52,680 bases of DNA, from positions 1 through 52,680 of the forward strand of contig DXBP01000044.1 in the NCBI GenBank assembly GCA_019116445.1, given 5' to 3'. Each line of letters opens with the position of its first letter. Within the stretch, counting starts at the first letter, position 1. Shown here piece after piece: positions 1 to 15,119 of the stretch. The notes beneath the pieces are model-generated. The model was given only the letters and a program-made list of their open reading frames with translations. It had not been told where the DNA came from and did not search any database. The stretch is from Candidatus Gemmiger excrementigallinarum (GTDB lineage: Bacteria; Bacillota; Clostridia; Oscillospirales; Ruminococcaceae). Position numbers and translations under genes: made by a program.

Positions 1-216
1 AAAGTCGCCGGGGGTGATACCGTAAGCTTCTATCACCTCATCCGCCACCTGCTCAAAGCTCAGGCAGTGGTTGACCTCGGCGGCGTCCAGCAGGCGGGCG
101 ATACCGTCGTGCCCGATGCGCGCCGCCACCGTACCGCGATGGTTTTTGGTTTGGCGGGCGATGAATTCGATAAGGCTGCAAACGTAGTAGACGTCGTCTT
201 TTCGCTTAGCGGTCAT
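1..216 (-). CDS. DUF3791 family protein (3' end cut by window edge)
   Basis: A reading frame opens at ATG 216 (MTAKRKDDVYYVCSLIEF...) and stays open for 72 codons to the window edge. Short helical proteins of about 70 residues beginning with a conserved hydrophobic helix and containing a YGI-type motif near the end belong to DUF3791, and DUF3791 genes commonly sit beside DUF3990 genes. The start overlaps the end of the DUF3990 gene by 11 bp, so the two are probably co-translated. Function is unknown; an antitoxin or partner role for the DUF3990 protein is only inference from the pairing. The family call rests on memory of the family pattern and the neighbour. Confidence 0.6.
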   Translation of the reverse strand, partial: MTAKRKDDVYYVCSLIEFIARQTKNHRGTVAARIGHDGIARLLDAAEVNHCLSFEQVADEVIEAYGITPGDF

Positions 217-670
217 GCAGAGGCTCACTCCTTTCAAATTCCAGGCAGGCCAACGCCCGAATGGTGTGGAAGCTGATTTGATGGGTGGGGTGTTTGAAGC
301 GGGCCAGCTCCCAAAACGCCTGGCGGCTGATGTTGCCCGCCAAAAAGTCGTTGACATAGTTCCAGATGGTATCGTCCGCCATCGGGCCTTCGACGATGTC
401 GTAATCATGGACAAACCCGGCGCGGCAGCGGCCGATAAAGTCCAGCCATTCATCGCTCATGCCGTCGAATTTCAGCACGCGCAGGGCGGGGTCCGGCGTG
501 TAGGTGTAGAAATTGACGACGCCGTGCGGATTGCGGTTGGCCCACTTGCGGGCCTGGTCATAGTTGTTGGTGCAGTAGAAGCCCCAGGAAAAATCCTTGG
601 TGTACCGGGTCCGGCGCACTTCGGGAAATTCAACGGTGGTGTTGCTGCCGTGGTAGAGGGGGATGGACAT
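206..670 (-). CDS. DUF3990 family protein, possible ADP-ribosyltransferase fold
   Basis: 154 residues from ATG 670 (MSIPLYHGSN...), chosen because YHGS at the N-terminus is the family hallmark and a GAGG lies 9 bp upstream; an in-frame start at 739 would add an unlikely leader overlapping the HEPN gene. YHGS followed by SWGFYCT resembles the first two motifs (H and Y of H-Y-E) of ADP-ribosyltransferase-like folds, and the long helical middle with many aromatic residues fits DUF3990. It lies 20 bp downstream of the HEPN gene and overlaps the DUF3791 gene, so it is the fifth gene of the leftward cargo operon. A toxin-like NAD-using activity is inferred from the fold; no target can be read from the sequence. 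Confidence 0.65.
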   Translation of the reverse strand: MSIPLYHGSNTTVEFPEVRRTRYTKDFSWGFYCTNNYDQARKWANRNPHGVVNFYTYTPDPALRVLKFDGMSDEWLDFIGRCRAGFVHDYDIVEGPMADDTIWNYVNDFLAGNISRQAFWELARFKHPTHQISFHTIRALACLEFERSEPLHDR

Positions 671-690
671 AGTAGTTAACCTCGCAACAG

Positions 691-1908
691 TTATACAAGC
701 AATAAAAGGTTGTAGTATAAGTAGAAGAGCTTGACGCAATCCCTTTTTCTTACATTTCGTTTGCTCATTCCATGTGCCACATAGTTCCGATTCACGATTT
801 TAGGAGTACCTTTGAAATCCTCGTCAACTTTGTACATTTCGTTTAGGCAAGAAAACACATTAAAAAAGTTAAAATACATAAAAAATGTGTGCTCAAAATT
901 TGGCCTTTTGCGTACCTTTATATGAAAGAATTGAATTGCTCCGTTGCCAACTTGCTTTTTCTGTTTGGCGTTAGTTTGAAAGCGGATAAGCACCCCGTCA
1001 ATCAAAGAGAATAAAAGCAAGGAACAGGCTGTATATTGCTTTTCTTTAAAGAGAATAATTGCAGAGTTATAGTCACTTTTTTTGCATTTGAATTCTTTCT
1101 TTGTTTCTGCCCATAGGGTTTCCATTACTGCTGTTTTGCCGTAGGGTAACATTTGTTTGTCCGCAGCATCCAATGTGCCAGGGGGATTGTCAAAGAAGTT
1201 TAAACTTTCCCACGGCGGAAAGGTCCAACCAAACGTTCCCCATTTGCAGACGGCACGCTTTCTAAGTTCACGTTCTTCCTCAGATAGCTGCGGTATCTTT
1301 ATCTTTGGTAATTGGGCAAAGAGCCGACTATAATAATCTTTTAAGGAAGCCAGTGATTGGAGAAATGCCTGTTGCTTTTCAAGAAGGGAATTTACTGTTT
1401 CCGTTATGATTCCTTTCATCTGCTGGGATTGTTCAAGCACTGGACGCAATATCTCGGTGAGCCGTTCAGATAAGTGCGCCATGCGCTGGTTCCAAGATTT
1501 ATGATAAGAAATGCAAAACCGTTTACAAATATCTGGTTCTTCCTGCTGCTGATTATACAGGCTCTTTAATTCTTCATCTTCTTCAAGAAAAAGCGCAATG
1601 AACTCGGCAAAGAATTCATCCGTTTGGCTGGATATTATTTGTGACGCGGGTCGTTCAGCCTCACTACATTGCAGTTTCTCTCGTATAATATCAGCCAGGA
1701 GAATTCTACACTCTTGCGGGGATGATGCAGCATCTATTTTACATATTCTTGCCAAATCTTGTTCGGATACGTAAATATCCGCTATGTATTGGCGTCCCGC
1801 AATTGTGATGGGATGCTTTTTCGACGTCGCTACAACAATCACTTTATCAGCAGAGCTTTTCTCGGCACTTGCATCGCTGGTACTGGAATTATTGGGATTG
1901 GTACACAT
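691..1908 (-). CDS. HEPN-domain protein, putative ribonuclease of the restriction cargo
   Basis: 405 residues from the ATG at 1908, five bases after GAGGAG; the ATG at 1911 is too close to that site and the one at 1923 lies upstream of it. Near the C-terminus is R374-N-Y-V-A-H379-G, an Rx4H motif typical of HEPN ribonucleases, inside a helical region that ends in an aromatic/leucine-rich helix. The middle is rich in charged and glutamine residues and may form long helices. HEPN proteins are frequent effectors in abortive-infection systems, and some restriction loci carry them. It sits directly downstream of hsdS, so a role as a back-up killer linked to restriction is plausible but inferred. 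No named subfamily was recognised; the N-terminal half is unassigned. Confidence 0.6.
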   Translation of the reverse strand: MCTNPNNSSTSDASAEKSSADKVIVVATSKKHPITIAGRQYIADIYVSEQDLARICKIDAASSPQECRILLADIIREKLQCSEAERPASQIISSQTDEFFAEFIALFLEEDEELKSLYNQQQEEPDICKRFCISYHKSWNQRMAHLSERLTEILRPVLEQSQQMKGIITETVNSLLEKQQAFLQSLASLKDYYSRLFAQLPKIKIPQLSEEERELRKRAVCKWGTFGWTFPPWESLNFFDNPPGTLDAADKQMLPYGKTAVMETLWAETKKEFKCKKSDYNSAIILFKEKQYTACSLLLFSLIDGVLIRFQTNAKQKKQVGNGAIQFFHIKVRKRPNFEHTFFMYFNFFNVFSCLNEMYKVDEDFKGTPKIVNRNYVAHGMSKRNVRKRDCVKLFYLYYNLLLLV

Positions 1909-1951
1909 CATATCTCCTCGCATATAAAATTCTAAACATCAAAAATCAAAT

Positions 1952-2001
1952 CTTGACAGCAAAAGATTTAAAAGTGTCAAGAATTTTCCTGTCATGACAC
2001 A
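1952..2001. promoter_or_regulatory. Cluster of TGTCA/TGACA inverted repeats between hsdS and HEPN genes
   Basis: The roughly 100-bp gap between hsdS and the HEPN gene holds an 8-bp perfect inverted repeat (TCTTGACA at 1951-1958, TGTCAAGA at 1975-1982) and a 10-bp perfect palindrome TGTCATGACA at 1992-2001. Another CTGTCAACAG follows near 2010. The arrangement could be an operator or a structured RNA between two cistrons. No protein is known to bind it, and no clear -10/-35 pair was found for the leftward strand. Confidence 0.35.
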
Positions 2002-2009
2002 CCTTTCTG

Positions 2010-3314
2010 TCAACAGACTCTCCGTTTGCCGGTCACAACTTCATAGATAAGAGATTTTTTGTAGGATTCGAGGTCGCCGATTAGGTATAGCTTTTCCTTG
2101 ATAAGATTATCAATAGACCGTGTTAATTGATTTAGTTTGCGGACAATACTTTTTTGCTCTGGCAGAGGGGGAATTGGCAAAAGTAAGCGCTTAATGATAT
2201 CTTGGCTAATATTGGGTTGCGTGCCGCCCCTTGCAGAAATAAGCAATTCGTTTTTTGCTGACAGAATTGCATAGAAAACATATTCTAAATCAAAATCCTT
2301 TTTAGGGGTCGACAATACACAGCATGCTTGATTCGTGCAAGAATCCAACTCTATAATGCTGGCATTTGCAATGGAAGCGCCATACATAGCTATGGCAATA
2401 TATGGTGCTTTATATATACGCAGTGCGGAATATTGATTCAGGGCTGCCTGAGTGAGCGTTTTTGCTGTTTCTGATACAATTCCCCCGTTAAGGTCTCCTG
2501 ATTGTAGCCAAGAGATATTCCCCCCATAATATGCCGCATCAGAGGATTGCGGAGTAGTTCCGCTGCCTATAACAGTGAAACAATTGGAAATTTTTGTTCG
2601 TTCCCAATGTCCAGGCATTTCCCTAATCCATTTCACGCCGCTGTCTTTCATTTCGGCGGTAGGGTCAAGGCCCTTGGTGACGGCTTCGTAGATGATGCTG
2701 GCTTTCCAGGCTGTGTACTCCTCAATGCCGGCTTTAACCTCGTCAATAAGGGTATCGATTTTTGCACTTACTTGACTTAGAGATTTAGCGATTGCTCTTT
2801 GCTCATTAAGAGGTGGTAGTATAATCAGAGAGTTTGAAAAATCGGAGTATTTGATATTTTTCCCATCTCGGATTCCTACAGTTAGTGAGTTTATATGGTC
2901 AATAAAGCGCTCATCTTTGAACAAAAAACGAAGGTATTTGACATCATACGCATCATCTGCGCGAAACACTTGGTATGCAGGAGAACACACGCCTTCAAAG
3001 GGCGATAATTCGAAACCACCTTGAAAGCTTCTTAGGCTAATAATGAAGTCATTGCGGTGTACAGTTTTAAATTGTTGCAGGTCTGTACCCGCAGAAACTT
3101 TTACAACACCCTCTAATTGGTCTTGCGGGCAAACTCCAAATTTTTGAGACGCAGCTAATAAAATGGGCGTTTGATTTCCGCGCTCGTTTGTTTGCCTAAA
3201 ATGGGCCCTGGCGCGAACAATTTCCCAGTGGCTCGGCACCATCCCAATCCATTCCACCCCGCTGTCCCGCATTTTCTCGTAGCGGCGCGGGGCCTTTTGT
3301 GTTTCGTTTGTCAT
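2010..3314 (-). CDS. hsdS: Type I restriction-modification specificity subunit HsdS
   Basis: 434 residues. HsdS recognises the bipartite DNA target and brings the HsdM (and HsdR) subunits to it. The protein shows the internal duplication of the family: each half begins with a near-identical linker, MRDSGVEWIGMVPSHWE near residue 15 and MKDSGVKWIREMPGHWE near residue 220, and each half ends in the conserved helical spacer (PPLNEQRAIAKSLSQ, then PPLPEQKSIVRKLNQ). The two variable stretches between are the target recognition domains. ATG 3314 is preceded by GAGG at 7 bp. It follows hsdM by 79 bp, a gap that contains a 16-bp-arm hairpin. No invertase or extra half-genes were seen, so phase variation is not indicated. 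The target sequence cannot be read from the protein. Confidence 0.93.
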   Translation of the reverse strand: MTNETQKAPRRYEKMRDSGVEWIGMVPSHWEIVRARAHFRQTNERGNQTPILLAASQKFGVCPQDQLEGVVKVSAGTDLQQFKTVHRNDFIISLRSFQGGFELSPFEGVCSPAYQVFRADDAYDVKYLRFLFKDERFIDHINSLTVGIRDGKNIKYSDFSNSLIILPPLNEQRAIAKSLSQVSAKIDTLIDEVKAGIEEYTAWKASIIYEAVTKGLDPTAEMKDSGVKWIREMPGHWERTKISNCFTVIGSGTTPQSSDAAYYGGNISWLQSGDLNGGIVSETAKTLTQAALNQYSALRIYKAPYIAIAMYGASIANASIIELDSCTNQACCVLSTPKKDFDLEYVFYAILSAKNELLISARGGTQPNISQDIIKRLLLPIPPLPEQKSIVRKLNQLTRSIDNLIKEKLYLIGDLESYKKSLIYEVVTGKRRVC

Positions 3315-3353
3315 TCTTAAACCTCGTTCTCGTTTTTCTCAAAGCGGCCTTGC

Positions 3354-3388
3354 CGCAGATTTTCCACACGATGTGTGGAAAATCTGCG
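3354..3388. repeat. Perfect 16-bp-arm inverted repeat between hsdM and hsdS
   Basis: CGCAGATTTTCCACAC (3354-3369) is followed by a 3-base loop GAT and its exact complement (3373-3388). It lies in the 79-bp gap between the hsdM stop and the hsdS start. There is no run of T after it on the leftward strand, so it is not a standard terminator. It may set the HsdM:HsdS ratio by RNA folding or processing, or be a small REP/MITE-like element. Its other copies, if any, lie outside this window. Confidence 0.7.
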
Positions 3389-3393
3389 CCCAG

Positions 3394-5190
3394 TCACTCA
3401 TCCTCCTCAAACAGGTCCCGCAGCTTCTGCGTCAGGCTGTGTTCACGGGCCACAATGCGGCGGGCAATATCATCGGCCGGCTCAATAGGCTTGTACTCAT
3501 AAAATACACGAGTAAAAGGAATTTCATAGCCCACCTTGGTCTTGCCGCTGTCCACCCAGGCATCCGGGTTGTAGGGCAGAACTTCCTCACGCATATACTC
3601 GTCGATGTCTTTTTCCAGCGGGATGTTTTCTGTATCACGCTTGGCGGTGTCGGCCACCGGCTTGCCGCGCTTGAGCACCTTGCTGCCATCGCTGTTGTAC
3701 AGCGGGCTCTCGACCACGACCTTGTTATAGCCAAAGGTCACGCTGTCCAGCACCTTGCTTTTGCAGATAAGACGCTGGCCTTCCGGCGTCTGTACCGTAT
3801 ACGTTTCGCTGCGGTACTCGCCATACGCGCGCACAATCAGTTCGCGGCAGGCGTCGGTAATGTCCGCGCGCTTGTTGCCGATGGGCTTGCGGCGGGGTTC
3901 GTAGCACCCGCTGGCGTCAATCAGCTGCACTTTGCCAATGTGCTCCTGCGGCTTGTTTTTGGTGATAATCCAAACATAGGTCGCAATGCCGGTGTTGTAA
4001 AAACTGTTGTTGGGCAGTTGGACGATGGCGTCCAGCCAGTCGTTCTCAATCAAATACTGGCGGATTTTGCTCTGGCCGGAGCCGGCGTCGCCGGTGAACA
4101 GGCTGGAGCCATTCTGGATGATGGCCATACGGCCGGTGTCCTTCAGCTTTTTCACGCCGTTGAGCAGGAACAGCATCTGGCCGTCGCTCTTGCTGGGCAG
4201 GCCGGGGCCAAAGCGGCCCGCATCACCGCGCTTGTTTTCGGCTTCCACGGCGGGGGCTTCCCGCTTCCAGTCGATGCCGAACGGCGGGTTGGAGATGACG
4301 AAGTCGAACTGATAACCGGGGAACTTATCATCAGACAGGGTATCGCCAAACTGCATATTGTCCGGGTCGCCGCCGTGAATCAGCATATCCGCCTTGGCGA
4401 TACCGTAGGTAAAGGGGTTGATTTCCTGCCCAAAGGTGCTGACGTCGGCGTTTTCGTCCAGCATTTTCAGCCGTTCTTCCATGCAGGTCAGCATCTGGCT
4501 GGTGCCCATTGCCATATCGTACACGGTGCGGCGGATGCCGTTGCGCTGCTCTTCGGGCGTCAGCGTCTCGCCGGTTGTCAGCAGGTCGCACATCAGGTAG
4601 ATGATGTCGCGGCTGGTAAAGTGGGCGCCGGCTTCCTCGTCATACGATTCCGAGAACCGCTGCACAAGGTTTTCAAAAATATAGCCCATATCTACTGTGG
4701 AGACTTTGTCGGGGCTCATGTCGGCTTTGTCGGAGCCAAAATCCACGATGACCTGGTACAGCGCCCCCGCCTCGACCATGCGGCTCACGGCGGCGTCAAA
4801 GTTCATGCGGCTCAGGATGTCCTGCACGTTTTCCGAAAAGCCGTTGAGGTAATCGCGGAAGTTATCCGCGATGTTTTCGGGGTCAGACTGGAGGTTGGCA
4901 AACGTGTAGTGGCTGGTGTTGTAAAATTCATAGCCGGAAGCGCGCTTCAAAAAGCCCGCCTTCAACTCGGCCGGCATGGTCTTCAGCTTTTCATCCTGCT
5001 CCCACACAGCGTCCAGCGTGGGCAGCAGGCAGTCGTGAAAACGCTTGATGATGGCCATCGGCAGAATGACCAGGCCGTATTCGTGCGGCTTGAAAGCGCC
5101 ATACAGGCTGTTGGCGATGTTCCAAATCAGGGATTCTTTTTCGCGGGCGTTTTTGCCGACTTCGGCGATTTTTGCATTGCTCTGGGTCAC
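3394..5190 (-). CDS. hsdM: Type I restriction-modification methyltransferase subunit HsdM
   Basis: 598 residues. It transfers methyl from S-adenosylmethionine to adenine (N6) at the site chosen by HsdS. The N-terminal helical domain (about 1-170) precedes AHFTSRDIIYLM (about 190), the usual lead into the methyltransferase domain. Catalytic motif IV NPPFG is intact in FDFVISNPPFG. The cofactor motif I is VYDMAMGTSQML in place of the usual DPxCGTGGxL, keeping D and GT but not the second glycine; I believe this variant defines a subfamily rather than a defect. The start is GTG 5190, overlapping the stop of the upstream ISL3-like gene in GTGA, with AGGAAAGGA upstream. No hsdR is in the window; it may lie to the left. 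Confidence 0.92.
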   Translation of the reverse strand: MTQSNAKIAEVGKNAREKESLIWNIANSLYGAFKPHEYGLVILPMAIIKRFHDCLLPTLDAVWEQDEKLKTMPAELKAGFLKRASGYEFYNTSHYTFANLQSDPENIADNFRDYLNGFSENVQDILSRMNFDAAVSRMVEAGALYQVIVDFGSDKADMSPDKVSTVDMGYIFENLVQRFSESYDEEAGAHFTSRDIIYLMCDLLTTGETLTPEEQRNGIRRTVYDMAMGTSQMLTCMEERLKMLDENADVSTFGQEINPFTYGIAKADMLIHGGDPDNMQFGDTLSDDKFPGYQFDFVISNPPFGIDWKREAPAVEAENKRGDAGRFGPGLPSKSDGQMLFLLNGVKKLKDTGRMAIIQNGSSLFTGDAGSGQSKIRQYLIENDWLDAIVQLPNNSFYNTGIATYVWIITKNKPQEHIGKVQLIDASGCYEPRRKPIGNKRADITDACRELIVRAYGEYRSETYTVQTPEGQRLICKSKVLDSVTFGYNKVVVESPLYNSDGSKVLKRGKPVADTAKRDTENIPLEKDIDEYMREEVLPYNPDAWVDSGKTKVGYEIPFTRVFYEYKPIEPADDIARRIVAREHSLTQKLRDLFEEDE

Positions 5191-6491
5191 GGTTCAAAAA
5201 TCCTTTCCTGTTCTTGTTTTAGTCCTCTCAGCGTTATAAAAACTTTCTCGATGGGTACGCCAAGGCGGCGTGCGGGCCGGCCTTCGACCTGTATCGTATC
5301 CGGCGTGTTCAAATAGAGCAGCCGCGCTTTTTCCAGTGTGAACGAGCACGGCCGCAGCGAGGCGGCAAGGGAGGCCATCTGCTCGCCAATGCTGCTGAAC
5401 TTCATGGCCGGGAACCCGGCTTTCTCATACAGGCAGATGTTCGGCATACTATCCAGCATCCGCCGGGCGATGGGCGCCACCTCGGCCGGGCCGCTTGTGC
5501 AGATGGTGTCGGCCCAGTCTCGCAAGCGTTGTTCTGACCAGTTGGTCGTCAGTATCTCATACAGGCTGTCCATCGCGTCATACAGGTTGACCAGTTCTCT
5601 GCGGCGGGCCAGGGCTTTTTGCAGCGTATATTGCTGGCTCGCCAGGATTTTTTTGCGCGGTGTCAAGATGACCTCCATCTTGTCCGGCATGGGTAGCCAA
5701 CGCATCTTTTCCCCGGCCGTGGCGCGGAGCTGTTCCCGTACCAGTGTGTAAAAGAATCCAGGGTCCACCAAAAATGCCGCGCGCGGCAGCGTTTCTGAGA
5801 CAGTTTCCCACACGGTTTCCGTCATGTCGAGGAGCACCTGATGGATAGCCGGCAGTTCGCACCGGCGTAAGTACGTGCGGATGGCATCTGTGCCGGCGTC
5901 CGGCAGAACATCGGTCAAGTAGACCTGGCCGCCTTCGACCGCCAGTACCAGCAAAGCAAGCGCCTGTGGGCGCTCATACGAAAGCAGACATAGTGTTTGC
6001 GGCGTATACAGTGGTGGCTGCGTGGATTCCTTGTCCTGCACCCAGCGGTCTGTCATAAGCTTGATGGCGGGTGCCGAAAGCGCCTGCCTTGCTATATCGC
6101 TGACTTTTTCCAGCGAACGGTTTATGGATTCGCGGACCAGGAAATCCTCGAAGCGGCGGGTCACGCGAGATTTCGGCGCGGCGAATTGATAGGCCGGGGT
6201 GAACACCGTTTGGCAATCGGGACAAAGATAGCTCTTGTACTGGAAGTGAAGTTCGACAAAACGCGCCGCCCCTTGCGCTTGTGGTAGGATGTCTTGCAGC
6301 ACGCGGGTCCGACTTGTGTGGATTTTCACGGCAAGACTTCCGCAGTTTGGGCATTGGATAATGGCGCCCGGATTCGGGAAAACGTAATAGCTGGAATCAT
6401 CGCCAAGACCTGCCTGCACCATCAATTCCGGCAACCCCAGCCGCCTGGTGCGGGCCTCGTCTGCCACGGGTTCTTTTGCCCTGCGAGACAT
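5187..6491 (-). CDS. ISL3-transposase-like zinc-finger protein, probably catalytically degenerate
   Basis: 434 residues from ATG 6491, nine bases after AGGGAG; an upstream TTG at 6527 lacks a ribosome site. The layout follows ISL3 transposases: a four-cysteine zinc finger (C47-x2-C50 ... C90-x2-C93), a helix-turn-helix-like region to about 150, then an RNase H-like region. The first acidic position expected after the opening hydrophobic strand is not visible (ALALLVLAVEGGQVYL), while D222 (LLDMTETV) and D243 (FLVDPGFF) remain and the usual FH after the latter is missing. It is therefore probably a DNA-binding protein rather than an active transposase. No IS inverted repeats flank it. It is the first gene of the cargo operon, overlaps hsdM by 4 bp and is divergent from tniQ. 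A transposon targeting or regulatory role is inference. Confidence 0.6.
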   Translation of the reverse strand: MSRRAKEPVADEARTRRLGLPELMVQAGLGDDSSYYVFPNPGAIIQCPNCGSLAVKIHTSRTRVLQDILPQAQGAARFVELHFQYKSYLCPDCQTVFTPAYQFAAPKSRVTRRFEDFLVRESINRSLEKVSDIARQALSAPAIKLMTDRWVQDKESTQPPLYTPQTLCLLSYERPQALALLVLAVEGGQVYLTDVLPDAGTDAIRTYLRRCELPAIHQVLLDMTETVWETVSETLPRAAFLVDPGFFYTLVREQLRATAGEKMRWLPMPDKMEVILTPRKKILASQQYTLQKALARRRELVNLYDAMDSLYEILTTNWSEQRLRDWADTICTSGPAEVAPIARRMLDSMPNICLYEKAGFPAMKFSSIGEQMASLAASLRPCSFTLEKARLLYLNTPDTIQVEGRPARRLGVPIEKVFITLRGLKQEQERIFEP

Positions 6492-6548
6492 TTTGCTCAG
6501 CTCCCTATATCCATATAGAACGTCCAACGGTCATTTTCTTCTGACAAC

Positions 6549-6577
6549 AGTATAACACAAAACAAGGAGCTTGTCAT
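6549..6577 (-). promoter_or_regulatory. Promoter of the ISL3-like/hsdMS cargo operon
   Basis: On the minus strand ATGACA (6577-6572) and TATACT (6554-6549) are separated by exactly 17 bp, about 60 bp before the ATG at 6491. Both boxes match the sigma-A consensus at five of six positions. Confidence 0.6.
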
Positions 6578-6651
6578 CTATAACCATTATTTATTTAATA
6601 GTATATTTATCTTTATTTTTTATATTAGAATATAACCATCTTATTTTTAAT
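6578..6651. repeat. Two direct repeats in the divergent tniQ/cargo promoter region
   Basis: Two 22-bp copies start at 6578 and 6630, sharing TATAACCAT and a T-rich tail ending in TTAAT; 17 of 22 positions agree. The start-to-start distance is 52 bp, about five helical turns, and the first copy overlaps the -35 box of the leftward promoter. They look like operators shared by both transcription units. The binding protein is not known; the ISL3-like protein is one candidate. Confidence 0.4.
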
Positions 6652-6682
6652 GCCTGCCGTTTTTATTGAAACCGATAAATGA

Positions 6683-6715
6683 TATAATTAAGGCATGAAA
6701 ACAACCCGCGGTTGT
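6683..6715 (+). promoter_or_regulatory. Promoter -10 and leader palindrome upstream of tniQ
   Basis: TATAAT occupies 6683-6688; no good -35 box is visible 17 bp upstream, which suggests an activated or weak promoter. Just downstream, ACAACC-CGC-GGTTGT (6701-6715) is a perfect 6-bp inverted repeat that could be an operator near the transcription start. Confidence 0.45.
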
Positions 6716-6747
6716 CGTGGCCGACTTGCTTGAGGAGGTGCTTGGGC

Positions 6748-8259
6748 ATGTTGGGGATTTTACTGCACCCATATAAAAATGAATTATTGGCTTCCTGGTT
6801 CGTGCGCCTTGCCGCACAGAACGGGATTGATTCGCCGACCCGCTTTTTGAAAGCCTATGTGTGCCCACAAAAGGCAGAAAAGGCCATTCAAAACACTTTG
6901 AGTTGTACAAATCAGTATTTGCTGTACTTTTGCGAACAGTGTGGGTTTTCACTTTATGATTTGCTCGTGAATCATACGGAGTATCCGGCGATAGCGCCTT
7001 TTTTGACGGCCTACCAGCAGAGCAAAATTATGCTGTCCGTATCCGGCGTACCGATGGGGAGTTCCATCAATCGCTTTATCAAAACGGCGAACGTTTGCCC
7101 GGAATGCCAGCAGGAGCAGCCATATATTCGGGTGGCTCATAATCTGCCCGGTGTGCGGGCCTGCTGGAAGCACGGATGCTCCTTGGACGGAATGCCGGTA
7201 ACCCCGGAAGATGTTGCCTACGCGCGCTATGCACATGATTTTTGGCAAGCGCATATCGATTGTGATATTAAGCAGCTCATGCGTTTTGCCAACCGTCGCG
7301 GGGCAAATCTAAGCAGGTACATTGGATTCGAAAACGGGATTCTGGAATTGATGAAGGTCGTTAGCGTAGAAGAATTGAAAGACGGCGTCGGCTCAAATGA
7401 AACCGCGAAGCCTGTGGCCGGATATACGATTTTACAGGGAGCCGGGAACATAACAGAATTCCGGCACGTTTGCGGGACACATTTTTGTATGAACGCAAAC
7501 GGGTTCAATCTCGGTTTTCAGTGCCCTCACTGTCAAGCAAAGATGACGGAGGCGGAGCGATTCGAGAACTATGTGGAGCATGTGGGCGGGTACGAGCTTC
7601 TTTCTCCTTATGAGGGAATGGCGAGAAACGTTCGGCTGCGGCATACTTGCGGCAAAGTGTTGGAGATACGAGCTTTCGACTTTCTGGGCGGAAGCCGGTG
7701 CCGTTGTAATTACTATCACACGCCGCAAGAAATCCAAAACACCATCCGTCAATTTGGGAATTTTAAATTGGTAAAGTACCAAAAAGAGCGGGTGACGATT
7801 TTGCATGAGGATTGCGGTCAAACCTTTACGATTGGATACAAGAAATTTTTGCTGCGGCCCTGGTGCAAAAAGTGCAAGCCCAGATTCCTCCGCTCGGAAG
7901 AAACGCTGCGGGCGGAAATCAAGGAGATAGCACCTGATTTTGAGTATATAGGCGGTTTTGCCGGCAGCGGCTCCAGTTTTACCATCCGCCACAAGTGCGG
8001 GTACGAGTTTCAGCGGGAAATTTACGAATTTCGCAAGAATCCCACTTGCCCCCGCTGCTCAAAGTTTACTTCCGGGGAAAAGCGTCAGATGTTCATTCGC
8101 TATATGAAACAAAAAACGGCTCCCGTCACGATACGGGAAATGCAGGAATACAGTGGCGGGTCGTATGATGCCGCCAAGCGGATACTGCAAAAAATGGCAG
8201 AATTGCAAATTGCTGAGAGGACCGGTCGCGGGCAATACCGACTAAAAGAGCGAGGATAA
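6748..8259 (+). CDS. tniQ: TniQ/TnsD-like target-selection protein with a zinc-ribbon array
   Basis: 503 residues from ATG 6748, nine bases after GAGGAGG. TniQ/TnsD proteins bind the attachment site and recruit TnsC. The N-terminus (LLHPYKNELLASWFVRLA) is the TniQ signature, followed by the family zinc finger C117-x2-C120 ... C139-x2-H142. After residue 205 come four modules of about 54-62 residues, each ending in HxCG or HxxCG, about 16-18 residues, then a Cys pair: H240...C259/C262, H299...C318/C320, H353...C373/C376 and H415...C434/C437. Residues 455-503 look like a winged helix. This extended C-terminus probably reads DNA sequence; the insertion beside nrdD suggests that gene's 3' end as the target. 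It is the first gene of the tns operon, whereas Tn7 has tnsD fourth. Confidence 0.9.
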   Translation: MLGILLHPYKNELLASWFVRLAAQNGIDSPTRFLKAYVCPQKAEKAIQNTLSCTNQYLLYFCEQCGFSLYDLLVNHTEYPAIAPFLTAYQQSKIMLSVSGVPMGSSINRFIKTANVCPECQQEQPYIRVAHNLPGVRACWKHGCSLDGMPVTPEDVAYARYAHDFWQAHIDCDIKQLMRFANRRGANLSRYIGFENGILELMKVVSVEELKDGVGSNETAKPVAGYTILQGAGNITEFRHVCGTHFCMNANGFNLGFQCPHCQAKMTEAERFENYVEHVGGYELLSPYEGMARNVRLRHTCGKVLEIRAFDFLGGSRCRCNYYHTPQEIQNTIRQFGNFKLVKYQKERVTILHEDCGQTFTIGYKKFLLRPWCKKCKPRFLRSEETLRAEIKEIAPDFEYIGGFAGSGSSFTIRHKCGYEFQREIYEFRKNPTCPRCSKFTSGEKRQMFIRYMKQKTAPVTIREMQEYSGGSYDAAKRILQKMAELQIAERTGRGQYRLKERG

Positions 8260-8262
8260 CAC

Positions 8263-8934
8263 ATGCGCAGAAAATCGCAAAAAGGAAAATTCAAGGAGCA
8301 CCGGGGCACCGGAACCGGGGCAGATTATAAGCCTTGGATACAAACGGGAGAGTTTGGCTCCAGGGGGACGGCAGCAAACCCGATTGACTGGAAAACCGGC
8401 CGCCAGATACACCTGCTCTCGCAAGGAGAGGTAATCGCCTGGTATCTGCTCCGGTGGGATGACAAAACGCTGGACGTCCGGGAGCAGTTTCCGCTCGACC
8501 TTGCGCAAACGATGCAAATCGCGGAAAACTATGGCATCAAGCATCCGGCGGACCGTCAAGGGAACCCGATTGTGATGACGACAGATTTCCTTGTGACACG
8601 AACCAATGGAGAAATCGCGATTTCCGTGAAAAGCAGTTTGGAAGGGTTCAAATCTCAAAATCGACTTATTGAGAAAGCGTATATCGAAAAAATGTATTGG
8701 GAAAAGCAAGGCGTACCGTTTCGTCTGTTCACAAAAGACGAAATGAACCGCGCGATGGCTGACAACATCCGCAATGTCGTTGCCTTTTATAACGCGGAAT
8801 TTTTCCCGGATGAAATTTCCCTGCTGAAAAAGCTTATCGCCAGAAAACTGATAGTCGTAGATATGACAAAGCCGCTAAATTTTCGGGACTTGCTTCATGA
8901 ACACAAAGGAGAATTGAAAAAATGGCTGAAATAG
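8263..8934 (+). CDS. tnsA: TnsA-like transposon endonuclease
   Basis: 223 residues. TnsA cuts the 5' strand at the transposon ends and, with TnsB, allows cut-and-paste movement. The N-terminal restriction-enzyme-like domain has the expected catalytic set: E56 (LLSQGEVIAWYLLRW), D108 (MTTDFLV) and K123 (IAISVKSSL), with the supporting Q75 in REQFPL. The C-terminal part (after about 160) resembles the helical DNA- and TnsC-contacting domain. The start ATG lies 3 bp after the tniQ stop, and the end overlaps tnsB by 13 bp. An intact active site argues for excision rather than replicative cointegrates. Confidence 0.93.
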   Translation: MRRKSQKGKFKEHRGTGTGADYKPWIQTGEFGSRGTAANPIDWKTGRQIHLLSQGEVIAWYLLRWDDKTLDVREQFPLDLAQTMQIAENYGIKHPADRQGNPIVMTTDFLVTRTNGEIAISVKSSLEGFKSQNRLIEKAYIEKMYWEKQGVPFRLFTKDEMNRAMADNIRNVVAFYNAEFFPDEISLLKKLIARKLIVVDMTKPLNFRDLLHEHKGELKKWLK

Positions 8935-11027
8935 AAATCCGTGTTACGGATATTATCACGATTGAGCAGACTCAATACAGAGTCATCGGTTACAGGGCCG
9001 GTTTGTTTTCGCTTTGCGAAATGAACACAAAAAAACTGACCATTTTTTTGTTGCCTTCAAAGGATTTAGTTAAATGGGCTACTGAAGGAGCCGCACGTGT
9101 AGAAAAAAGCAATTCATCCAATATTCTGCTGCCCGATTTAAAAGATGAAAATTATTTAAAGAAACAAGCGCTGATGCAGTTTATTATGCAAGAGTATGGT
9201 CCGCTATATGAAAAATTGTATGGAAAAACAACCAAAACCAACTTGAAGAAGACAATGGAGGATTTGGGAATTCAGCGGGATGCTGCATGGAGAGCCATTC
9301 GCAGATTCCTCCAAAGCGGTCTTGATATGGCTGCCATTGTGGACGGACGTTCACTTCGTTCCGGGAAAAGAAACCCCTATAAGTACTCCAAGAAAACAGG
9401 GCACCCTACAATGAACGCTTTGGGAACAGGCGTTCCCCTGACAGATGAAATCAGAACCTATTTTGATGAAGCAATCAAAGATTTTTTAATCGGAAGGGCA
9501 AAGACTAAAAAAGATGCTTACATGACCATGATTGAAAAGCATTTCATCAACGAAGAAGAGACACCTACAGGAATACGTGTTAGCGTTTTACCGGATAATC
9601 TGCGCCCTACCCTCAAACAATTTTTGAACTATACGAGAGTCCGCGTTCCACAGGAGGAAATCGATAAAGCAAAAACGTCCGCTCGTGAGCAACGGAACAA
9701 CAAACGGCTTTTACTCTCTGACAATTTGCAGGGCGTCATGGGGCCGGGCGACCTGTGGGAAGTAGACGAGTGTGAAATCGACCTTTCGCTGGTATCGGTT
9801 GAAAACCCGTCTGTGACGGTCGGCCGCCCCATCGTATATGTCATGATAGACGTATATACCCGTATGATTGTTGCCTACTCCGTTGCGTTTGACAACAACA
9901 GCGTACTGGGAATCACCAACTGCTTTTTGAATCTTCTGGATGACAAGCAAGAATTGTGCAACCGCTTCGGCATTCAAATTGGGGCAAATGAATGGCCGTC
10001 CAAAATCTTGCCGCTTCGTCTTCGCAGTGACTATGGCGCCGAATATATTTCTCACGCGATGGATACGATTTGCTGCAAATTGGGTGTTGCAAAAGAATTG
10101 GTTTCCCCGGCGACGGGTTCCTTAAAGGGGCAGGTCGAGCAGCTTTTTCACCAAATCCATGCTGCACAGAATTCACTGTTGGAAGGGAAAGGGTTGATTG
10201 AAAAACGATATGACTCTAACCACCACCAGGAGGCCATCCTCAACATCCAGGAGTTTGAGGCGGTTTTACTCACCTACATTGTCGGGCATAACCGCAAATA
10301 TATGGAAAAGTATCCGTTGACAAAGGATATGCGCCAGCAGAATGTAGAGCCCTGCCCGATTGACCTTTGGAAGTATGGCGTATCATTGAACGGTAGCCCT
10401 CGCCCCATTACAAATGAAGTCATGTTCCGTCACTCGCTTCTGTTGCCGGTCAAAGCCTCTGTCGGCCGCGCAGGAATCACCTTCAAAGGATTGTTTTATA
10501 TCAATTTGCAAGACGAAGCGTTGCTGCGTGATATGTACTTGGCGTCTACTCATGGCAAGAAGAAATTAGAAAGCGCCTGCATCGACCCGCGCAACATCGG
10601 CCATTTATACTATATCCGAGAAGGAAAGCTGATGACGGCATCTTTGAATTATAAAAAAACCGGCATGAAAGAATATGAGGGAATGACATTGTCGGAATAC
10701 AATGCACTGCACAACAAGAAAAAGGATGATGACGCCATAGGACGTGAAACAAATTTGCAGATGGATATCGCCATTCGTGACCGGCAAGCCAAAATTGTTT
10801 CCGAAGCACAAAAGCGGCATCTTAGTCCTTCCACAGAAAATTTGCGGGCGAATCGTGCAGCCGAGAAAAAGGCTCGCGCACAGCAAATGCCCATAATCCC
10901 TAAAGAGGAAACGGTTATAGAAACAACTGCTGTACAATCGCTTCCGAAAAAAGGGAATGGGCCGATTCTTCCTGTTAGCGCCAGCGACGCACTTAGGGAG
11001 TTCAATGAGGAGGAGTTTGATGAATGA
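8922..11027 (+). CDS. tnsB: TnsB-like DDE transposase
   Basis: 701 residues, close to Tn7 TnsB (702). TnsB binds the end repeats, cleaves the 3' ends and joins them to the target. Helix-turn-helix modules fill the first 260 residues. The rve-type catalytic core carries D282 (LWEVDECEID), D370 (LRSDYGAEY) and E406 (LKGQVEQLF). A Mu-type beta-barrel region follows (about 480-600), then a charged tail that probably contacts TnsC. It overlaps tnsA by 13 bp and tnsC by 4 bp, indicating coupled translation. The catalytic triad is complete. Confidence 0.95.
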   Translation: MAEIEIRVTDIITIEQTQYRVIGYRAGLFSLCEMNTKKLTIFLLPSKDLVKWATEGAARVEKSNSSNILLPDLKDENYLKKQALMQFIMQEYGPLYEKLYGKTTKTNLKKTMEDLGIQRDAAWRAIRRFLQSGLDMAAIVDGRSLRSGKRNPYKYSKKTGHPTMNALGTGVPLTDEIRTYFDEAIKDFLIGRAKTKKDAYMTMIEKHFINEEETPTGIRVSVLPDNLRPTLKQFLNYTRVRVPQEEIDKAKTSAREQRNNKRLLLSDNLQGVMGPGDLWEVDECEIDLSLVSVENPSVTVGRPIVYVMIDVYTRMIVAYSVAFDNNSVLGITNCFLNLLDDKQELCNRFGIQIGANEWPSKILPLRLRSDYGAEYISHAMDTICCKLGVAKELVSPATGSLKGQVEQLFHQIHAAQNSLLEGKGLIEKRYDSNHHQEAILNIQEFEAVLLTYIVGHNRKYMEKYPLTKDMRQQNVEPCPIDLWKYGVSLNGSPRPITNEVMFRHSLLLPVKASVGRAGITFKGLFYINLQDEALLRDMYLASTHGKKKLESACIDPRNIGHLYYIREGKLMTASLNYKKTGMKEYEGMTLSEYNALHNKKKDDDAIGRETNLQMDIAIRDRQAKIVSEAQKRHLSPSTENLRANRAAEKKARAQQMPIIPKEETVIETTAVQSLPKKGNGPILPVSASDALREFNEEEFDE

Positions 11028-12559
11028 GTAAAGGGTACGAATACAGCGACCAAGAATATGCTGCGGGCGGAAACGGGTCAGTGGTAGATGCAATTTACCA
11101 TAAAGCAAAAGCGCCCATGGATGTTGGCAACCCTTATATCGAAGCCCTGCCGTATCCGCTTACCGACATCGGTGAAGTCGCACGATATTATACATATGGC
11201 CTAAATCAATACGATGTGGCCGAAAAGCAACTTTCTCGTTTGGACCGTCGCTTTTTGGTCAATCAGATTCGCACCGTTCGCGTAGCGCTTCCGTTTGAGC
11301 AGGAATTGGAAATGGAGTTTTACCGCACCCTTTGCGATTCTTATCGTCTTAGAAAGCCGCGCGAAGTGTATGAGGACGGTGTAAAAAGAATCAAATTGGT
11401 GGGTGACGTTTCTGAAGCAGCAAACACCGGATTCAATATGCTGGGATTCTCCGGTTGTGGAAAATCAAGCGCCATCAAAATCCTTGTCAGCCGCTACCCG
11501 CAGGTCATCCGGCATCATATTGATGGAGAGGTCTATTCACAAATCGTCTATTTGACGATTTCCTGTCAGCCCAATTCCAACTTCTCAGCCTTGTATTCTG
11601 GCATCGGAAAAGCCATTGACTTTGCGCTGAATACCGATATCTATCAAAAGCAAATCGATAGGATAAAGACGCTGGCCGGCAAAATGAACAAGGTCATCGA
11701 GCTGATTGAGCTGTTCGCCATTGGAACTATTATTTTAGACGAAATTCAGCTCATTGATTTTAAAACCACTAAGGAATCCAGCTTTGAAGCACTGATGGTC
11801 ATCACAAACGAAACGAAGATGGCTTTCTGTGCGGTCGGCACGACGGAAGCCTACGTCAAAATGTTCAAAGAGCAGCGGACTGCGCGCCGGCTCGGTCGAG
11901 AAATCAATGCTTCGGGTTATTGCGGGAATGAAAAATTCTTTTCCCACGTCATGAGCCAGCTTTTTTGTTACCAGTGGTTCGATGAGCATATTGACCTTAC
12001 GGAAGAATTGGTCGAAGCGTTTTATGAAGAATCCAAAGGGATTATCGACCAGGCGGTGTCTTTGTACATTGCAGTACAGGACGAATATCTCAAATCCAAT
12101 CGAAAATCAATCAGTCCCGAATTTATTGCTGCGGTTTCGAAGCGGCGTTATCCAAACCTGAAATTGCTGCTTGAGCGTGCAAGCGAACCTGGCGTGCAGG
12201 AGCAAATCGAAAAAATCATGCGCGGCAGCAAGGAACAGTACGAGCACGAATTGAGTGAGGCCAAGCAGCAGGAAGTTATGCAGCATCTCGTGCAGAATGC
12301 AGCAGAAATCGATATATCCTCCTTGATTCGCCGCACGATTGCTAGCATCCAGCAGGTCGTGGGTTCTATGTACGATGAAAAGCAGATTGAGAAAGCATGT
12401 AAGCAAATTGCCGCCGGGATAGAAGTATCGTCAATTGCTGATAGTGATTTTATCCAGCGGGTCTTTGCGCGGCTCCAATCTCAGAAGCAAAAGAAATCAC
12501 CCAGAAGGAAAGCTCCCTCTCATGAAGATTTATTGAATGCTGTTCTCGGGAACACATAG
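11024..12559 (+). CDS. tnsC: TnsC-like AAA+ ATPase
   Basis: 511 residues. TnsC links the target-bound TniQ to the TnsA/TnsB transposase and provides target immunity. Walker A is G141-FSGCGKSS-149, Walker B is TIILDE at 235-240, and a sensor-like AVGTTEAY follows near 270. This is the AAA_22/TniB-like core. The C-terminal 130 residues are mostly charged helices and could hold the TnsA/TnsB contact region. The start overlaps tnsB in ATGA. It is the last gene of the operon and is followed by a terminator at 12700-12734. Confidence 0.93.
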   Translation: MSKGYEYSDQEYAAGGNGSVVDAIYHKAKAPMDVGNPYIEALPYPLTDIGEVARYYTYGLNQYDVAEKQLSRLDRRFLVNQIRTVRVALPFEQELEMEFYRTLCDSYRLRKPREVYEDGVKRIKLVGDVSEAANTGFNMLGFSGCGKSSAIKILVSRYPQVIRHHIDGEVYSQIVYLTISCQPNSNFSALYSGIGKAIDFALNTDIYQKQIDRIKTLAGKMNKVIELIELFAIGTIILDEIQLIDFKTTKESSFEALMVITNETKMAFCAVGTTEAYVKMFKEQRTARRLGREINASGYCGNEKFFSHVMSQLFCYQWFDEHIDLTEELVEAFYEESKGIIDQAVSLYIAVQDEYLKSNRKSISPEFIAAVSKRRYPNLKLLLERASEPGVQEQIEKIMRGSKEQYEHELSEAKQQEVMQHLVQNAAEIDISSLIRRTIASIQQVVGSMYDEKQIEKACKQIAAGIEVSSIADSDFIQRVFARLQSQKQKKSPRRKAPSHEDLLNAVLGNT

Positions 12560-12613
12560 CCATGCACTTGCAAAAATCAAAAGGCATCATTCTCTTGCGC
12601 TGGAGATTTTCGT

Positions 12614-12650
12614 TCGCATATAGTCCGTTTTGATTTCTGCGAATATAATC
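12614..12650 (+). repeat. Possible distal TnsB sites
   Basis: TCGCATATAGTCCG (from 12614) and TGCGAATATAAT (from 12638) resemble the first part of the three stronger terminal repeats (CGCA-A/T-rich-TATAGTTGG) but lack the GTTGG half. They may be weak or degraded TnsB sites between tnsC and its terminator. Confidence 0.25.
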
Positions 12651-12699
12651 AAACGAACTCAGTTGGAAAAATATTACGATGTCCAGCATCAACAAAATT

Positions 12700-12734
12700 G
12701 CCACCACCCGAAAACTCGGATGGTGGCGATTTTT
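12700..12734 (+). terminator. Terminator of the tns operon
   Basis: GCCACCACCCGA (12700-12711), loop AAAC, and TCGGATGGTGGC (12716-12727) form a 12-position stem with one mismatch, followed by TTTTT at 12730-12734. Confidence 0.8.
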
Positions 12735-12742
12735 AATTGTTG

Positions 12743-12826
12743 TCGCAAATATAGTTGGCCCTTATGCGTTTCTAAAAATGCCTTTATCGCATTTATAGTT
12801 GGCTTAACGCATATATAGTTGGACTT
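12743..12826 (+). repeat. Three terminal direct repeats (putative TnsB binding sites, right end)
   Basis: Three copies of (T/A)CGCA-(A/T)2-TATAGTTGG-(C/A)-C/T begin at 12743, 12787 and 12807: TCGCAAATATAGTTGGCC, TCGCATTTATAGTTGGCT and ACGCATATATAGTTGGAC. The last is closest to the terminus. Clusters of about 20-bp TnsB sites in one orientation inside the end are the rule for Tn7 relatives. Spacing is 44 and 20 bp. Confidence 0.8.
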
Positions 12827-12828
12827 TC

Positions 12829-12836
12829 ACACGGTT
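12829..12836. other. Predicted right terminus of transposon and 5-bp target duplication
   Basis: The terminal ACA is at 12829-12831; read inward from the end the sequence is TGTGAAAGTCCAACTATA. The next five bases, CGGTT (12832-12836), would be the target site duplication expected for Tn7-type insertion. The nrdD stop codon begins 16 bp beyond the terminus. The other copy of CGGTT should flank the left end outside the window, so the exact boundary is a prediction. Confidence 0.6.
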
Positions 12837-12847
12837 TATTTTTCCTA

Positions 12848-15070
12848 TTACAGATGGAGCACACGGTCCTTGATTTCGGCGGTGCGGCCCTGGTTCCAGA
12901 ACTGGGTGCCGATGTAACCGCAGGTACGGCGGGCTACGTTGAGCTTGTTCTGGTCACGGTTGTGGCACTTGGGGCACTCCCAGACCAGCTTGCCGTCTTC
13001 CTCCACGATGCTGATTTCGCCGTCGTACCCGCAGACCTGGCAGTAGTCGCTCTTGGTGTTCAACTCGGCGTACATGATGTTGTCGTAGATGAACTGCATG
13101 ACCTTGATGACGGCTTCCAGGTTATCCTGCATATTGGGCACTTCCACATAGCTGATGGCGCCGCCGGGGCTGAGTTTCTGGAAATCACTCTCGAATTTCA
13201 ATTTGGTAAAGGCGTCGATCTGTTCCGCCACGTGGACGTGGTAGGAGTTGGTGATATAGTTGCGGTCAGTGATGCCGGGCACAATGCCGAAGCGCTTCTG
13301 CAGGCACTTGGCAAACTTGTAGGTGGTGGACTCCAGCGGGGTGCCGTAGAGACTGAAGTCAATGTCGTGCTGCTTCTTCCAGGTCTGGCAGGCGTCATTC
13401 ATGTGCTGCATGACGTTCAGCGCAAAAGGCTTGGCAGCGGGATCGGTGTGGCTCTTACCGGTCATATACTTGCAGCACTCATACAGGCCCGCGTAGCCCA
13501 GGCTGATGGTGGAGTACCCACCGTAGAGCAGTTTGTCGATGGGCTCGCCCTTCTTCAGGCGGGCCAGGGCACCGTACTGCCAGAGGATGGGCGCGGCGTC
13601 ACTCAGCGTGCCTTTCAGGCGGTTGTGACGGCACATCAGGGCCTTGTGGCAGAGTTCCAGACGCTCGTCGAAGATCTTCCAGAACTTGTCGAAGTCGCCA
13701 CCGCTGGACAGCGCCACGTCCACCAGGTTGATGGTGACCACGCCCTGGTTGAAACGGCCGTAGTACTTGGGCTTGCCGTCATAATTCTGTGCGTTGGCTA
13801 CGTTGTCCCAGCCGTTGCCGGAGCGGTCGGGGGTCAGGAAGCTGCGGCAGCCCATGCAGGTGTACACGTCGCCGTTGCCCTCGGTTTCGCCCTTGGACAG
13901 CTTGTATTCCTTCATCTTCTTCTCGCTGATGTAGTCAGGCACCATGCGCTTGGCGGTGCACTTGGCAGCGAGCTTGGTCAGGTAGAAGTAGGGGGTGCCC
14001 TCGCGGATGTTGTCCTCCTCCAGCACGTAAATTAGCTTGGGGAAGGCAGGGGTGATCCAGACACCGGCCTCGTTCTTGACGCCCTGGTAGCGCTGACGCA
14101 GCATTTCTTCAATGACGATGGCCAGATCGGATTTCAGGCGCTGATTTTCGCCGGCCTCACCCAGGTACATGAACACCGTGATAAAGGGGGCCTGGCCGTT
14201 GGTGGTCATCAGGGTGACGACCTGATACTGGATGGTCTGCACGCCGCGCTTGATTTCTTCCCGCAGGCGGGCTTCCACGATCTCGGAAATCTTCTGTTCA
14301 CCGGGATCAATGCCCAGTTCCTTCATTTCAGCTTCCACATCGCGGCGGATCTTCTTGCGGCTCACATCCACGAAGGGGGCCAGGTGGGTCAGGCTGATGC
14401 TCTGGCCGCCGTACTGGCTGGACGCCACCTGGGCGATGATCTGGGTGGCAATGTTGCAGGCGGTGGAGAAGGAATGAGGCTTCTCGATCAGGGTGCCGCT
14501 GATGACGGTGCCGTTCTGCAGCATATCGTCCAGGTTGACCAGGTCGCAGTTGTGCATGTGCTGGGCGTAGTAGTCGGCATCGTGGAAGTGGATGATGCCT
14601 TCCTCGTGGGCCTTGACGACCTCCGGAGGCAGCAGCATACGCATAGTCAGGTCCTTGCTGACCTCACCGGCCATATAGTCGCGCTGGACGCTGTTGACGG
14701 TGGGGTTTTTGTTGGAGTTCTCCTGCTTGACTTCCTCGTTGTTGCACTCGATCAGCGACAGGATGCGGTCGTCGGTGGTGTTGTGGGTGCGCTTGAGGCT
14801 CTGCACATAACGGTAGGTGATGTATTTGCGGGCGACTTCGTAAGCGCCGGTGGCCATGATGGCGTCCTCGACGATGTCCTGGATCTCCTCCACGTTCATG
14901 GCGTGGCCGCGGCTCAGGCAGGTGGTCTGGACCTTATCGGAAATTTCGATGATCTGGTGATTCGTCAGGCGCTGGCTCTCGGCCACAACGTTGTTGGCCT
15001 TGGTGATCGCCGCAATGATTTTTGTGATGTCGAAAACGGCTTCACTGCCGTTGCGCTTGATGATCTTCAT
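12848..15070 (-). CDS. nrdD: Anaerobic (class III) ribonucleoside-triphosphate reductase
   Basis: 740 residues from ATG 15070, seven bases after GAGGAG (an upstream in-frame ATG at 15085 lacks this). The enzyme reduces NTPs to dNTPs in the absence of oxygen with a glycyl radical made by NrdG. An ATP-cone regulatory domain fills about residues 1-95 (MKIIKRNGSEAVFDITKI). The C-terminus has two cysteine pairs for zinc (YCQVCG and CPKC) and the radical loop RRTCGYIG with the radical glycine at about 718. The gene is divergent from nrdG rather than in the common nrdD-nrdG order. Its 3' end abuts the Tn7-like transposon; the coding sequence is intact, as expected if the end of the gene is a recognition site that insertion preserves. 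Confidence 0.97.
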   Translation of the reverse strand: MKIIKRNGSEAVFDITKIIAAITKANNVVAESQRLTNHQIIEISDKVQTTCLSRGHAMNVEEIQDIVEDAIMATGAYEVARKYITYRYVQSLKRTHNTTDDRILSLIECNNEEVKQENSNKNPTVNSVQRDYMAGEVSKDLTMRMLLPPEVVKAHEEGIIHFHDADYYAQHMHNCDLVNLDDMLQNGTVISGTLIEKPHSFSTACNIATQIIAQVASSQYGGQSISLTHLAPFVDVSRKKIRRDVEAEMKELGIDPGEQKISEIVEARLREEIKRGVQTIQYQVVTLMTTNGQAPFITVFMYLGEAGENQRLKSDLAIVIEEMLRQRYQGVKNEAGVWITPAFPKLIYVLEEDNIREGTPYFYLTKLAAKCTAKRMVPDYISEKKMKEYKLSKGETEGNGDVYTCMGCRSFLTPDRSGNGWDNVANAQNYDGKPKYYGRFNQGVVTINLVDVALSSGGDFDKFWKIFDERLELCHKALMCRHNRLKGTLSDAAPILWQYGALARLKKGEPIDKLLYGGYSTISLGYAGLYECCKYMTGKSHTDPAAKPFALNVMQHMNDACQTWKKQHDIDFSLYGTPLESTTYKFAKCLQKRFGIVPGITDRNYITNSYHVHVAEQIDAFTKLKFESDFQKLSPGGAISYVEVPNMQDNLEAVIKVMQFIYDNIMYAELNTKSDYCQVCGYDGEISIVEEDGKLVWECPKCHNRDQNKLNVARRTCGYIGTQFWNQGRTAEIKDRVLHL

Positions 15071-15119
15071 GCTGGTTCTCCTCAATGTATGATGCTGTGT
15101 GGTTTATAACAGAACGTAT

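Follow-up and report, generated by a model that had tools for sequence, protein, structure and literature searches.

A Tn7-like transposon sits directly behind the intact nrdD gene of Candidatus Gemmiger excrementigallinarum, and a close copy of it occupies the same position in Gemmiger formicilis An723, a member of the same genus. We conclude that nrdD very probably serves as a genuine attachment gene, and we have high confidence in one overall explanation of the locus, a cut-and-paste Tn7-like transposon whose TniQ protein recognizes the 3' end of nrdD and inserts 16–17 bp behind the stop codon. Our analysis established the gene set of the element, its ends, its offset from nrdD, a target duplication in An723, an element-free site in a relative and repeated use of the site; from the sequences we infer that the element is active. 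In the mechanism that we propose, the TniQ/TnsD-type protein would recognize the conserved nrdD 3' end and then recruit TnsC and TnsAB, and insertion 16–17 bp past the stop, with the right end toward nrdD, would leave the gene intact.

The element and its junction with nrdD

The window, meaning the whole stretch of DNA that we analyzed, is the entire contig C29 (52,680 bases) of a draft genome of 2.38 Mb in 67 contigs that is 83% complete. Because the window is one complete contig, the left end of the element lies outside it, and searching the genome of the window for an end pattern of 18 bases, with up to three mismatches allowed, returned only the right end. The visible part of the element and the adjoining gene comprise the following features.

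1–679, minus (1–453) and plus (215–679) strands: cargo, two overlapping open reading frames from the ORF list
691–1923, minus strand: cargo gene of 410 amino acids without family assignment (identity to An723, 410/410)
2010–3314, minus strand: cargo hsdS, type I restriction specificity subunit (identity to An723, 434/434)
3394–5190, minus strand: cargo hsdM, type I restriction methyltransferase (identity to An723, 598/598)
5187–6527, minus strand: gene with an ISL3-like transposase domain, in both element copies (442/446 identical)
6712–12831: element core with right end, tniQ-tnsA-tnsB-tnsC and then the terminus ACA at 12831
6712–8259, plus strand: tniQ, TnsD-type target selector; TniQ core at residues 18–158 (PF06527, 1.3e-14)
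8263–8934, plus strand: tnsA endonuclease (PF08722, 8e-16; Tn7 TnsA 1f1z, E=1e-30)
8922–11027, plus strand: tnsB DDE transposase (Tn7 TnsB 7pik, E=1.2e-43, residues 112–654)
9027–9665, plus strand: part of tnsB (residues 36–248) ahead of the DDE domain, divergent from An723 (100/213 amino acids, 356/639 nucleotides)
11024–12559, plus strand: tnsC AAA+ ATPase (Tn7 TnsC 8glu, E=1.5e-12; TniB and AAA_22 matches)
12700–12727: hairpin separating tnsC from the right end, listed as terminator-like for the minus strand, in which nrdD reads; both strands fold
12744–12831, minus strand: right end with three TnsB-type sites CCAACTATANNTGCG and terminus TGTGAAAGT
12832–12836: CGGTT, the 5 bp expected to be duplicated at the target, by analogy with An723, where the duplication is perfect
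12848–12946, minus strand: 3' end of nrdD, presumed recognition sequence (alignment of 28 genus sequences)
12848–15085, minus strand: intact nrdD, anaerobic ribonucleoside-triphosphate reductase (NRDD, E=1.3e-198)

The visible part encodes a TnsB-type DDE transposase, a TnsA endonuclease, a TnsC AAA+ regulator and a TniQ/TnsD selector, the last being its sole target selector of that type. At the right end, the terminus ...GGACTTTCACA (reading ...TTTCACA) closes at 12831, and 16 bases (12832–12847) separate it from the nrdD stop codon, TTA on the minus strand at 12848–12850. The nrdD product, which serves the O2-independent production of DNA building blocks, contains both its ATP-cone and Gly-radical domains. 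The initial annotation, which had described a Tn7-like transposon 16 bp beyond the nrdD stop, with a right terminus ACA at 12829–12831 next to the intact 3' end of nrdD, is borne out on each of these points. The three TnsB-site-like repeats that it placed before the right terminus proved to be exact copies of CCAACTATANNTGCG when read inward; they begin at distances of 10, 30 and 74 bases from the element end. Elsewhere in the 52-kb window, on both strands, this unit occurs nowhere with up to two mismatches and seven times with up to three.

Among the cargo, residues 80–151 of the minus-strand ORF at 1–453 match the candidate defense family PDC-M10B. Both element copies carry the ISL3-like gene, with the restriction operon on one side of it and tniQ on the other, and a search around it (5187–6527) for flanking inverted repeats of at least 18 bases found none; it may be a core or regulatory gene resident in the element rather than an insertion sequence.

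Repeated use of the nrdD site

The closest relative of the window's TniQ, 98% identical and the sole match in a scan of genome contigs, is that of An723 (G204, contig C171), whose assembly comprises about 1110 contigs. There too the element follows nrdD in the same orientation, at a distance of 17 bp past the stop. An end-pattern search of that genome recovered the left end on contig C702, and GCAGG stands beside both ends as a perfect 5-bp target duplication. The two ends are on separate contigs; we assign them to one element because they share this duplication and an end type, and because of the flanking gene. Their TnsB-site arrays are inverted, with units at 8/28/72 (0, 4 and 0 mismatches) and 8/53/107 (1, 2 and 3 mismatches); arrays with TGT...ACA termini are found at the right end in the window and at both ends in An723. 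Beyond the An723 left end follows a gene that, named by eye, appears to encode an iron-type alcohol dehydrogenase (Fe-alcohol-dehydrogenase). In An723 the element entered downstream of the nrdD stop and ahead of a left-flank sequence that resembles a hairpin with T after it (by eye), which would place the element between nrdD and its terminator-like hairpin; in the window, the hairpin inside the element could end nrdD transcripts instead. Insertion at a nearly fixed distance beside an intact conserved gene, 16 and 17 bp behind nrdD, is therefore seen in two genomes, and an nrdD attachment site, as the initial annotation had proposed, gains support from this second insertion with its 98% identical TniQ and 5-bp duplication.

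We found a match to the nrdD 3' end in 32 of 35 genomes of the genus, those of the window and of An723 included. For 20 of the 30 remaining genomes we retrieved more of the sequence downstream of nrdD (0.8–18 kb, with at least about 0.3 kb of nrdD); for the other 10, the analysis covered short flanks. At a threshold of E 1e-4, none of the 20 fetched regions matched any of nine proteins of the window's element. The dehydrogenase gene could be located in two of them, G228 and G220. In G228, a genome of one contig, nrdD and the dehydrogenase gene are adjacent, separated by about 0.25 kb that holds a terminator-like hairpin and no element. The rejoined, element-free site expected in relatives is thus found there, though the junction bases proper do not align between G228 and An723 with its flanks joined; the sequences on either side do. 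G220, also on one contig, has about 1.9 kb of extra DNA between the two genes, including two pieces in common with contig C8 of the window's genome.

On contig C8 a tnsC fragment, 75% identical at the protein level across 83 residues and oriented as expected for insertion at the nrdD site, stands ahead of the dehydrogenase gene. This fragment probably represents a third, older and diverged insertion there. The known material thus amounts to two complete right ends, a single left end and this fragment.

Several further observations concern the DNA behind nrdD in these genomes. Besides the truncated second tnsC just described, contig C8 (L071 1–2620) holds a HipA-like gene matching the candidate defense family PDC-M03A, as well as weak end-like sites near 2076–2219. 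We rejected these sites as the left end of the window's copy, since the neighboring bases are not CGGTT/AACCG, and for the same reason assigned them to the older element. One has two mismatches and the other three, which is suggestive only: at up to three mismatches the 52-kb window holds 7 background sites, and five regions from the genus, 90 kb in all, hold 17 and also include one two-mismatch site. A repeat of about 108 bp lies behind nrdD in G220 (L038 17582–17690) and, by eye, in G218 (L023), and it also borders the cut tnsC fragment (L071 232–339); the L038 and L071 copies are 88% identical. In G199 (L124 368–453), nrdD is followed directly by 86 bp that match the 3' end of a cargo gene from An723 at 94% identity, a possible footprint of a lost island.

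The elements of the window and An723 are best read as separate, horizontally acquired insertions, because they are more alike than the host DNA around them and because the 5-bp sequences beside their right ends and their offsets differ. Identity between the copies is 98.7% over window positions 1–9046 and 99.1% over 9667–12437, compared to 87.1% over 4.9 kb of host flank and 2048/2238 bases in nrdD alone. In 200-bp steps, 57 of 64 show 95–100% identity, with 100% from about 600 to 5200, the stretch of the restriction genes; the seven lower steps are the first (the window's opening 200 bases, at just 84%), four within tnsB and two at the right end. A single ancestral insertion inherited vertically by both genomes, with nrdD no more than a lucky and unrecognized landing place, would account for the shared gene and orientation and the almost equal offset. 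It would leave unexplained why the element blocks, and above all the identical restriction-gene stretch, have so outpaced the flanks in similarity, and why the copies differ in their right-end neighbors (CGGTT in the window, GCAGG in An723), in offset (16 and 17 bp) and in end sequence. With a diverged element's fragment at the same locus, and element proteins unmatched in all 20 other fetched genus regions, we consider shared descent very improbable. Still less credible, in our estimate, is that the intergenic region downstream of nrdD attracts insertions in general, the Tn7-like element having landed there at random like several others. Other DNA has indeed entered this region, as the roughly 1.9 kb in G220 and the 86-bp cargo-gene end in G199 attest, but random landing would not yield two like-oriented insertions with a precision of 16 and 17 bp, and the element carries a TnsD-type selector with a DNA-binding-type extension.

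Target recognition and the end-binding module

This extension occupies the C-terminal half of TniQ, where residues ~235–455 form zinc-finger repeats. The half is homologous to phage homing endonucleases (phrog_559, 3.7e-30; phrog_681, 1.3e-13), and a pairwise comparison with Twort ORF031 gave 3e-17. An AlphaFold model of TniQ built from two sequences has a mean pLDDT of 43, and we used only its repeat pattern, beside the sequence matches; as a guess from that model, the helical tail at ~470–505 could be a winged helix. An alignment of the nrdD 3' end from 28 genus sequences contains an unbroken run of 29 columns, 63 to 35 bases ahead of the stop codon, with identity of 90% or more even at third codon positions; past the stop, no conservation is seen. 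The alignment draws on 28 of 30 loci, L030 and L035 having no 3' end, and the An723 copy (L010) was excluded beforehand. This pattern fits recognition inside the gene with insertion outside it, protein conservation accounting for part of it, and the zinc-finger array of TniQ is the probable reader of nrdD.

Two regions of the window diverge jointly from An723 (L006), 9027–9665 and 12437–12831. Within TnsB, the divergent residues 36–248 are flanked by nearly identical sequence (35/35 amino acids before, 448/453 after) and the frame is unbroken. TnsC is identical at 459/460 positions over residues 1–460, with a divergent tail of the last ~50 codons, while TniQ and TnsA agree at 505/515 and 218/223 positions. 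The right-end sequence differs between the copies and the site spacing is kept, at 10/30/74 versus 8/28/72, the unit starting two bases earlier in An723. Both An723 ends are of one type, unlike the window's right end, whose left counterpart would be expected to be of the window's own type. Since the DDE-domain match of TnsB begins at residue 275, we take the divergent part ahead of it to be the region with which Tn7-family transposases bind their ends.

From these comparisons we infer that an end-recognition module, comprising TnsB 36–248, the terminal TnsB sites and the TnsC tail, was exchanged as a unit by recombination. Recombination between elements sharing the site, combined with selection for matched TnsB and ends, would produce such a joint change. 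Ordinary divergence or a chimeric assembly might mimic an exchange, given that just two copies are known and that both genomes are drafts, one in 67 contigs and 83% complete and the other (G204) in about 1110 contigs. We judge this unlikely to a high degree: the borders within tnsB are too sharp for drift and the frame runs intact across them (35/35, 100/213, 448/453), the two An723 ends share one type distinct from the window's, and the right-end site spacing is equal in both copies. Building on module exchange, we tentatively suggest, as a possibility that we hold to be rather doubtful, that Tn7-like elements sharing a site swap an allele-like cassette (the end-binding part of TnsB, both end arrays and the TnsC tail) and so alter their immunity type, which would leave newcomers unblocked and allow stacking behind nrdD, with the resident and the decayed element in the window's genome as the result.

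Relatives, known systems and significance

Wider searches returned only distant relatives. Matches to TniQ were found in 3 of 197 genomes of a family sample and in 11 of 398 of a phylum sample, the window's own genome included in each, and none of the others was close; An723 (G204) was evidently not drawn in the family samples, as it is absent among their matches. The initial annotation would have taken close relatives of this TniQ next to other genes as evidence against an nrdD site; we found no such case and, apart from An723, no close relative. PF06527 was matched in 11 of 394 genomes of an order sample, again including the window's own, and NRDD occurred in nine of the ten others, on the same contig in none of the nine (several being fragmented drafts). 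For TnsB, 22 of 391 genomes of a class sample matched, own genome included, the best other being G901 at 33%. For TnsC, eight of 396 genomes of a family sample did so, own genome included; the one close extra copy was the C8 fragment and the rest were 24–27% identical. Viral contigs gave no match, TnsB fell below 60% identity in all 3692 matched plasmid records, and TniQ did likewise in all 57 matched phage records.

The window's element resembles Tn7, which inserts at attTn7 behind glmS, in several respects. Its TnsA, TnsB and TnsC match solved Tn7 proteins, it inserts past a conserved gene whose 3' end stays intact, with its right end toward that gene, and it has several TnsB sites per end and a 5-bp duplication (here in An723). 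It differs in its target gene, nrdD, and in its offset of 16–17 bp from the stop codon, compared to about 25 bp in Tn7; in its gene order, tniQ-tnsA-tnsB-tnsC with tnsC closest to the right end; and in the zinc-finger array of its TniQ. No TnsE was found among the scanned proteins of the visible part, the left part of the element being missing. The element of G901 (L116 5509–13421) has the same tniQ-tnsA-tnsB-tnsC order, and its first TniQ aligns to residues 23–449 of the window's TniQ at 25% identity and has similar zinc-finger repeats (motif, by eye). Unlike the window's element, it carries an extra TniQ behind tnsC and adjoins an apparently truncated Mg-chelatase/comM-type gene rather than nrdD, so relatives at this greater distance use other sites. 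The phage homing endonucleases (Twort ORF031, phrog_559 and phrog_681, with DUF4379 in Twort) share the zinc-finger repeats of the C-terminal half of TniQ, whereas TniQ has no recognized nuclease domain and its repeats are fused to a TniQ core. CRISPR-associated transposons (CASTs) have the Tn7-type core genes in common with the window's element; we rejected this identity for the visible 12.8 kb, which has no cas gene among its scanned proteins and no CRISPR-like direct-repeat array.

In the text available to us, earlier work attributes multiple HTH domains to TnsD-like proteins (PMC10293859) and names glmS, comM, parE, guaC, yciA, ffs, rsmJ and tRNA genes as sites of Tn7-like elements (PMC10293859, PMC8649781, PMC11406308). 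The strings 'nrd' and 'ribonucleo' are absent from the main text of PMC10293859 and PMC8649781, and 'nrdD' from the available text of PMC11406308. The initial annotation knew of no mention of nrdD among the attachment genes described for Tn7 relatives, and the main-text literature searched, largely outside subscription journals, agrees. Within this search, then, nrdD had not been described as an attachment gene for elements of this known kind, and we regard it as new.

Tn7-like elements thereby gain an anaerobic-metabolism gene among their known safe landing sites, and in the same element TniQ is linked to zinc fingers in an array like that of homing endonucleases. For gut anaerobes, site-specific insertion tools are few. 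The joint change of TnsB and the element ends offers a natural experiment on matched end recognition and perhaps on the avoidance of target immunity, which, we hypothesize, module exchange helps these elements to achieve.
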